From Sistotremastrum niveocremeum HHB9708 (lineage: Eukaryota; Basidiomycota; Agaricomycetes; Sistotremastrales; Sistotremastraceae): 64,000 nt of DNA. Shown here piece by piece: positions 45,153 through 47,421 of the stretch. The translations under genes and the position numbers were made by a program. The stretch lies in contig KV419394.1 in NCBI GenBank assembly GCA_001630475.1, positions 1,364,001 to 1,428,000 of the forward strand. Direction: 5' to 3'. Every line of letters starts with the position of its first letter. The stretch's first letter is position 1. Under the pieces are notes generated by a model. The model was not told the origin of the DNA and ran no database searches. It worked only from the letters and a program-made list of their open reading frames with translations.

Positions 45153-47421
45153 ATGCACGTCCTTTTCCAAGATACTCTAAATGCGCTCACTATTGCCGGA
45201 ACATTCTCTGGTGTCCCGTTCGTTGGTTCTGGAGCCGCGATCTTGAACGTGATCTGTGTTTCCTACGATAACATCTCCATCTACAAGGCGAGTCGCTGTA
45301 GGTATCTGTTAACGAGTACAAATCTAATCCGACGATCTAGGACAGATGCAGACAACTCATCAGACGTTGCATCGAACATGAACTAGTGCTTTCGGAATCT
45401 GCCTCCAAGCTACAAGGAACGGCCCTTCAAGAGGCAGCGGACGAGTTCGAATAGTGCGTCACAGCCAGAGAATAACGCAGACTGTCAACGTTTCCTTCAG
45501 CTATCTGAAAAGCTTCAATTCCAAATTGAAGAAGTGGTCTAGCTATGGACGTGCGAAATCATACTGTTGGTCTCGTCTGTGCGACATACAGCTTCTGTGT
45601 ACAACTTGAAACGTATTCCACAGGGAAGCAGGAGGAGATATCCAAGGGCCTAAACGACTTGGATAACCAACTTGCGACAGTAACAACAACATTCAATGTA
45701 CGCCTGTTCGTCGTATGCTCGAGATGCTGACCATAACCTAGTGATCCCGATGTCAGATGCGTGCAAATATACAAATACATGCCCAAGTTACGGAGAATGG
45801 TCAAGCCGCACACCACCATTTTCAAGAAGTGAAGGAATTGTTGCAGCAAGTGTTGAGTAGTAGACAAGACATCTCCGAAATTGCCAGAATGGCCGTTGAA
45901 GAGCGCTTGCCGGTGGCAGAGCGCTTGATGTCTGATGGCCAACAAGTACCCATCTATCGTTGCTCCTCGAGTGCGCTCTGGCTGACCTCGGGCTCAGGAA
46001 ATGGATCTTCAACCCCGGGATAGCCAAAAATATCTAGATTATCAGCGTGGCTTGCTAAACCTCCATCAGTCTACCGGAGTTCTCCCTTCAGTACCGAACT
46101 TAAGCCAAGAGATTACTCGATCGGGGCAAAGAGCAGTAACAGGAGGTCATTATCCTATCTATCATGTTGCGCGTGTGTGCATTGAACCATCTCCGTCAGG
46201 GACATTCAGTGATGTTTGGATGGGTGAATGGCTGGGTGGCAAGAAAGTCGCTCTGAAGGGGCTCAGGGGTGTAGCTGTTTCGCCTAATGCTCAAAAGGTC
46301 AGTCTCGTCACACAAGGAAAATGCAGCTGAGTAAAGGTGCTTTCGGTCAGCGCTTTGAGCGGGAGATCGTGGTTTGGTCAAAATTGGATCACCCAAATAT
46401 TCTCCCGTTATTCGGCATAGTCACAAACATGGGGCCCCACATACACTTGGTAGGAAAAAATGAAACCTGTAGCATCATGTTCTCATCTAGCGCACAGGTA
46501 TCACCATGGCAGGATAATGGCAACGCATTGGAGTTAGTCCTGCCTTCCGATTGGGATATCTCAATCATTGATGGTGTTGTAGTTTCGTCAAATCCCATCC
46601 AGACGTCAACAGGTTGGCGCTAGTGTGTCTTTACAGTGTTAAGAAGATTGCTCTGGTCTAATTTGATCTAGTTAGCTGGTGCAGCCCGCGGGCTTGAATA
46701 TCTCCACTCACCTAGTGTAGGCGTAGTCCACGGAAACGGTGAGTCGTTTCAAAGAATCGCGCCACAAGTGCTAAAGCAATGGTGGGTCGGGCAGTGAAAT
46801 GTGTAGGTCGATTTACACCCAATGTGTGATTGTGTGATCATTGATGTGTAGCCCAGTCGAACATCTTGATATCCGATAAAGTGAGTGGCGACATTGAACG
46901 ATATCGATATAGTATTTGACAGCTTTTTCTAGGGTGTAGCCACTATCTGTGATTTTGGTTTGTCAATTCTCGTGGAAGAAGTAACAGAAGTTTCTGCGTC
47001 GGCCACGTTGACCGCCAGCGGAAGTGCGCGGTACGTGCGCCCGAAACATGTATCGGTTCCAACAAAATGACACATTTGTAGTTGGCTGGCGCCCGAGTTG
47101 ATAGAAGGGACTATCAATAGCCCCACGACATATACTGACATATACGGCTTCAGCATGGCCATTCTAGAATGCTGCACCCTGAAGCGCCCATTCGCGCATC
47201 GTAAGCGAGATGCAGCAGTCATCCGCGACGTGACGGTGGATCGTCTTCACCCGCCTAGGCCAGCGGACTCCGTGTGGATTACCGACGAGGTGTGGGCCAC
47301 GATGTGCAGGAGTTGGAGTAGTGAAGCTCACTTACGCCCCCTGATGTCTCATGTGGTGAAGGTTTTAGAGCGGAACTCGAATACGAGTTCAACGGTAGAA
47401 GACGATATGATGGAGGAATAA
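45153..47421 (+). CDS. MLKL-like four-helix-bundle protein with C-terminal pseudokinase domain
   Basis: Thirteen exons (45153-45287, 45341-45453, 45501-45565, 45624-45697, 45757-45945, 45998-46297, 46351-46449, 46498-46532, 46583-46622, 46672-46738, 46852-46880, 46933-47030, 47082-47421) join in phase to 527 residues. Residues 1 to about 130 resemble the MLKL-type N-terminal helical bundle common in Agaricomycetes: a hydrophobic helix with GTFSGVPFVGSGAAILNVI, then amphipathic helices (CRQLIRRC, EFEYLKSFNSKLKKW, EEISKGLNDLDNQLATVTTT). A tyrosine-kinase-like domain fills about 255-515: VALK with Lys279, Glu297 in RFEREIVVWSKL, DFG at 389-391, and WLAPEL. The catalytic loop reads HGN instead of HGD/HRD (Asn372) and is about one residue short; the Gly-rich loop is degenerate (SPSGTFSDVW). 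Probably catalytically weak or dead. Role inferred: regulated membrane-acting cell-death or signalling protein. The first intron appears to be GC-AG. Confidence 0.8.

Follow-up and report, generated by a model that had tools for sequence, protein, structure and literature searches.

A probable MLKL-type N-terminal region joined to a kinase-like domain with Asn at the catalytic Asp position in Sistotremastrum niveocremeum

The window analysed in this work is a stretch of 64 000 nt from Sistotremastrum niveocremeum HHB9708 (C1:1364001–1428000), and comparisons between loci were made within this single fungal genome (34.7 Mb, 111 contigs). A multi-exon gene is present on the forward strand of the window at 45153–47421; when it was spliced by hand all phases closed and there were no in-frame stops. 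Hand splicing gave 13 exons, the same number and the identical span as in the original prediction, with residue numbers that were 3 higher; the junctions of the two 13-exon models are therefore not all identical and differ somewhere upstream of the kinase motifs. Eleven of the 12 introns in the hand-spliced model were 47–59 nt in length, the remaining one being 113 nt. The span, the open frame and the phases of the earlier 13-exon model were thus confirmed, but its intron 46739–46851 is better split by a microexon. The resulting 14-exon model encodes a protein of 531 residues that ends at a TAA stop codon (47419–47421) and contains 13 introns, all of them GT–AG with the exception of intron 1 (45288–45340), which was read from its splice sites as GC–AG (GCGAGT). 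By eye, a GT–AG alternative is possible for intron 1, which would be one residue longer and would keep the frame; it gave a poorer match, also judged by eye, to the way K-x-x-C is spaced in the BaMLKL domains discussed below.

Exons 1–4 (45153–45287, 45341–45453, 45501–45574 and 45624–45697) encode the N-terminal helical region (residues 1–132), a probable bundle of the MLKL_NTD/BaMLKL type that includes the hydrophobic segment FSGVPFVGSGAAILNVICV. Residues 133–261, encoded by exon 5 and the start of exon 6 (45757–46195), form a putative helical linker or brace-like region connecting to the kinase, and the protein kinase domain (PF07714; 46196–47367) is encoded by exons 6–14. Of these, exons 6–10 are located at 45998–46297, 46351–46449, 46498–46532, 46583–46622 and 46672–46738, and exons 12–14 at 46857–46880, 46933–47030 and 47082–47421, exon 11 being the microexon (TGAAATGT; 46795–46802).

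The microexon was identified with a small gene finder employing consensus splice sites, which replaced the 113-nt intron with two introns of 56 and 54 nt flanking an 8-nt exon. Intron 10 (46739–46794; GTGAGT..GGGCAG) corresponds to the first half of the former 113-nt intron, and intron 11 (46803–46856; GTAGGT..GCCCAG) is in phase 0. Together with one base of exon 10 the microexon encodes V-K-C and is the source of the catalytic-loop Lys, so that the loop reads HGNVKCSNILI, with canonical spacing, Lys at +2 and Asn at +5. The gene finder was otherwise poor (even with the known exons it gave the CDS a negative hexamer score, training having been partly on spurious long frames), and its hexamer score is no evidence for coding, the microexon being its sole useful output.

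Inclusion of the microexon raised the PF07714 score from 109.8 to 117.3 bits (+7.5) and the PF00069 score from 88.0 to 100.6 bits (+12.6). A motif scan of the fetched sibling kinase loci, to which only motif-fitting loops are visible, revealed 14 distinct catalytic loops; judged by eye, 12 of the 14 contained an intron within the loop, in 11 cases in phase 0 between D+3 and D+4, which is exactly where intron 11 falls. Among 100 000 shuffles of the intron, only 1579 contained an 8-nt exon that gave Lys or Arg at +2 with both introns at least 45 nt in length. Because of the normal loop spacing, the higher scores for both families, the conserved intron position and the rarity of such an exon in shuffles, the 113-nt intron is more plausibly a pair of ordinary introns flanking an 8-nt microexon, and the single intron 46739–46851 was rejected. 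The original prediction had described a catalytic loop that was one residue short (HGN-AQSN); this was most likely a splicing mistake, the microexon giving a loop of normal length (HGN-VKC-SN). It had also named a splice restoring HGD-x-K/R-x-x-N as a finding that would speak against it, and of this pattern x-K-x-x-N was restored but the D was not. As a general lesson, an 8-nt microexon in the catalytic loop can make a kinase seem more degenerate than it really is.

The kinase domain matched PF07714 in Pfam with an E value of 1e-30 (residues 262–513 of the 13-exon protein), and the 117.3 bits of the 14-exon protein are above the curated cut-off of 23.1 for this family; in NCBIfam, 13 of 14 matches fell within the kinase domain. 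Outside the gene, the top kinase match was on contig C23, with 35 % identity over the C-lobe; shorter exon matches reached 49 %, and the genome search turned up no close paralogue. The 14-exon model retains the VALK Lys282, Glu300, the loop Lys and Asn (HGNVKCSN), DFG and APE, which agrees with the earlier description of Lys, Glu, DFG and APE as kept, at Lys and Glu numbers that were 3 lower. The catalytic-loop Asp was absent, as had been predicted, its position being occupied by Asn375 (codon AAC, 46735–46737) in both splice models. The earlier observation that the Gly-rich loop keeps one of its three Gly also held; since Gly loops of the siblings, for example KCGGQADIY and DAGGYSDIY, likewise retain few of them, the reduced loop is an ordinary feature among these kinases. 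As the other motifs are kept and only the Asp is changed, the pseudokinase call hangs on a single residue, Asn375. Replacement of the catalytic Asp by Asn usually cripples catalysis; with the remaining motifs kept, it could leave some kinase activity.

The 14 sibling loops began with HGD in 10 cases, HAD in two, HRD in one and HGN in one. When the genome was searched at the DNA level, the pattern HGD-x-KG gave 39 matches against four in the backward control, and HGN-x-KG gave two matches, a number at chance level against four in its control, although one of them is the kinase loop on contig C49 that the motif scan had also listed; the window gene itself is invisible to these patterns, its loop being split by introns. 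These counts suggest that HGN is uncommon in the genome yet not unique. At another locus (C49:122964–126185, reverse strand) two catalytic loops were observed in tandem, HAD followed by HGN, possibly a tandem kinase–pseudokinase.

The N-terminal region did not match known families directly. No match to MLKL_N (PF22215) was detected in Pfam with residues 1–171 at E values up to 10 or with the whole protein at E values up to 1, the N-terminus had no HeLo match in Pfam, and phmmer found no match to MLKL in the PDB. Profile searches with both parts of the protein were thus strong for the kinase (PF07714) but left MLKL_N unmatched. No Pfam family reached its cut-off in the N-terminus; the best was UBR4 (E 0.0095, below that family's cut-off), which was set aside as weak together with HBM (0.026), Lit (0.11), PUB10_N (0.21) and SOK (0.27), as was an NCBIfam nucleotidyltransferase model (E 0.011, residues 77–214). 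A regular-expression scan for helix-1 motifs produced noise. When the genome was searched for a second gene with the same N-terminus, all five matches with E values up to 10 were to the window gene itself, and none of 4169 reading-frame pieces around the sibling kinases was convincing, the highest profile score being 6.8 bits.

Residues 45–196 of the protein displayed amphipathic helical periodicity, with a mean 100-degree moment of 0.320 that was reached by four of 2000 shuffles, and runs of at least 12 residues free of Gly and Pro were present at 1–15, 28–70, 72–98, 100–115, 117–146 and 148–183. These runs and the helical moment are compatible with a helical bundle followed by a linker, and a helical bundle fold of the N-terminus is considered likely. 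The first helix was similar in hydrophobicity to three BaMLKL domains, but this level was also reached by 260 of 5000 shuffles.

MLKL_NTD-like (BaMLKL) domains are present elsewhere in this genome. A search with a single query domain (L046) identified 100 pieces, many of them in arrays on contigs C65 and C12. Three joined BaMLKL domains matched Pfam MLKL_N with E values of 4.3e-10, 3.5e-8 and 6.5e-7, and a profile of six BaMLKL domains from the genome matched human MLKL N-terminal structures, the best being 2msv (E 2.6e-6). Residues 1–140 of the window protein scored 12.5 bits against the six-domain profile. In the equal-length shuffle test, which is the one to rely on (earlier tests having set 140-residue shuffles against at least 200 residues of real sequence), this score was reached by none of 5000 plain shuffles (maximum 9.3) and by one of 5000 shuffles preserving hydrophobic class (maximum 16.2). 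The real score was reached by five of 5000 class-preserving shuffles for residues 1–136 and by three of 5000 for residues 1–200; when the best single stretch was scored, between two and 12 of 5000 reached it. In the earlier tests of unequal length, 14.9 bits were obtained from two stretches (10.5 + 2.6) against a maximum of 9.5 in 5000 shorter shuffles, and the 200-residue N-terminus scored 14.1 bits against maxima of 13.4 for shorter class-preserving shuffles and 13.6 for circular permutations. Among controls run against the same profile, the reversed sequence scored 5.9 bits and the highest of 2019 real frames 5.1 bits. The N-terminus thus seems to be related to the MLKL-like domains of the genome, at a level that is weak but exceeds most nulls. 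Since class-preserving shuffles rose to 16.2 bits against a real score of 12.5, much of the profile signal is hydrophobic pattern.

Alignment of the N-terminus with BaMLKL by hhalign was colinear over 117 columns (P 0.0044), but with a probability of only 7.8 %. Intron 2 of the window gene (45454–45500; 47 nt, phase 2) agreed in phase with BaMLKL intron 2 and, in HMMER and MAFFT alignments in which the column was judged by eye, shared a column with the intron of four BaMLKL domains (L069, L072, L073 and L074). This represents four of the nine joined BaMLKL models, the joins of the other five being poor; hhalign places its gaps differently at intron 2 and did not reproduce the shared column. 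The first BaMLKL intron was not common to the window gene. Considered together, the profile, colinearity and intron comparisons make homology of the BaMLKL type probable for the N-terminus. The MLKL-type bundle of the original prediction accordingly gains a weak link through the BaMLKL domains of the genome, but has no direct match to MLKL_N or to MLKL in the PDB.

Arrays of MLKL_NTD-like genes were found on C65, C12 and other contigs, and these genes may have an MLKL-like layout as well. At two of the loci (L046 and L069+L075) a similar stretch follows the bundle, and by eye it looks like a degenerate kinase N-lobe (AVILRRFE..FKSEI..L.H.NFARM.G); a kinase-like stretch behind BaMLKL was nevertheless unsupported, the L046 stretch matching no Pfam families and a stretch on contig C35 giving no PDB matches. 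A further locus (C58:38347–41676) has a weak match to MLKL_N (E 6e-5, below the cut-off) followed by a long frame that by eye resembles an NLR nucleotide-binding region, with frames of TPR-like appearance upstream. Around the window gene itself, ten neighbouring frames were scanned, of which six matched families (three helicase-domain frames, Nuf2, Myb_Cef and Myb) and four had no match. None of the ten contained an NLR or HET domain, although intron-split genes may have escaped the scan.

The window protein resembles animal MLKL in that an N-terminal helical bundle (predicted here) is followed by a helical linker and then by a kinase-like domain that lacks the catalytic Asp. It differs in that its N-terminus does not match MLKL directly by sequence, and in that no RIPK3 counterpart or phosphosite is known for it. 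Animal MLKL lacks DFG and, according to the original prediction, has HGK in the loop, whereas the window protein keeps DFG together with the loop Lys and Asn; the lesions are therefore different. The earlier comparison with animal MLKL thus stands as to the absent Asp and, probably, the layout.

Several fungal and plant systems offer closer or more distant parallels, as far as these are covered in the parts of the papers that were consulted. With the BaMLKL domains of NLRs (PMC9815663) the window protein shares a hydrophobic segment preceded by a short stretch at the N-terminus, the K-x-x-C motif and colinear helices, as well as the phase-2 intron found in four domains of this genome; its sequence is far diverged, and it is fused to a kinase domain instead of an NLR NOD. 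BaMLKL domains have been described with an extra N-terminal helix (PMC9815663), which the window protein may also have, and fungal HeLo/HELL domains depend on a helix at the N-terminus that has transmembrane propensity (PMC10197012). Fungal HELL domains joined with kinase or pseudokinase domains exist according to one sentence in PMC12881547; compared by this description only, their overall layout is like that of the window protein. The kind is therefore already known in print from these fusions, and the window protein is a diverged new member. The FslK kinase lineage is expanded in Agaricomycetes, and most of its members are described as keeping the catalytic residues and carrying no further domain, additional domains being present in 16 of 241 (PMC3937382). 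By description, FslK kinases are similar in their tyrosine/TKL-like kinase domain, fungal host and many siblings, and differ from the window protein in its Asn for Asp and its N-terminal domain. Wheat Pm13, a plant MLKL by its authors' naming (PMC10951266), is alike, by description only, in having an N-terminal and a kinase-like domain, and belongs to another kingdom. In titles and abstract openings of open-licence papers, no study of a fungal (agaricomycete) pseudokinase was found.

A balanced reading of this sequence evidence, with about as much in favour as against, is that in the 531-residue protein a helical linker connects a BaMLKL-type bundle to a TKL-type kinase domain whose loop is HGN and which acts as a dead or weakened switch. 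The kinase domain would be catalytically dead or strongly weakened, possibly with Mg-ATP binding retained. Its task would be to restrain the bundle until a signal arrives from upstream, which could be phosphorylation by an HGD sibling kinase or a partner, and the released bundle would oligomerize and act at the membrane. By analogy of layout with MLKL, the kinase-like domain would read the signal and the bundle would act on membranes, conceivably with a role in cell death or allorecognition.

A less probable but serious alternative is that the gene encodes an ordinary TKL-family kinase or one with weak activity, the helical N-terminus serving as an oligomerization or adaptor scaffold and not as a membrane killer, with the D-to-N change lowering signalling without abolishing it, or being strain-specific or a sequence error. 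With the microexon included none of the other catalytic motifs is damaged, AAC and GAC are one base apart, and the N-terminus has no direct MLKL_N match and a BaMLKL similarity that is partly hydrophobic pattern, all of which suit such a kinase. However, HGN in only one of 14 sibling loops is not the family norm, the BaMLKL similarity is above most nulls and is accompanied by an intron in common, and the first helix is hydrophobic like that of BaMLKL, the 260 equal shuffles notwithstanding. It is unlikely that the gene is instead decaying, as a kinase that has lost its catalytic Asp on the way to becoming a pseudogene. FslK kinases have expanded in individual species and degenerated following recent duplications, in the part of PMC3937382 consulted, and the CDS hexamer score was negative in the crude model; yet that model was trained on partly spurious frames, the frame stays open for 531 codons over 13 introns whose splice sites are usable, and all checked motifs but one are kept in a domain with a strong PF07714 score. 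Restoration of the Asp by unseen splicing, giving an active kinase, is conceivable at a locus that apparently already uses an 8-nt microexon, but is highly improbable since the Asn codon is part of exon 10, immediately upstream of the GTGAGT donor, and, by reading alone, no alternative donor or acceptor replacing AAC in frame was found.

Under the preferred reading, of a bundle joined to a dead or weakened kinase switch, a relay from kinase to pseudokinase of the RIPK3–MLKL kind can be envisaged, in which some of the HGD siblings would phosphorylate bundle–pseudokinases such as the window protein and the bundle would breach membranes in allorecognition or antiviral death, the protein itself including no amyloid or NLR step; this is put forward as a speculative and rather doubtful extension. 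If the combination of bundle and dead kinase is true, the window gene would provide a tangible fungal example of the complete MLKL layout, to be set alongside HeLo/HELL and NLR-fused forms, which are better known, and it would be a test case for kinase-triggered, necroptosis-like death in basidiomycetes.
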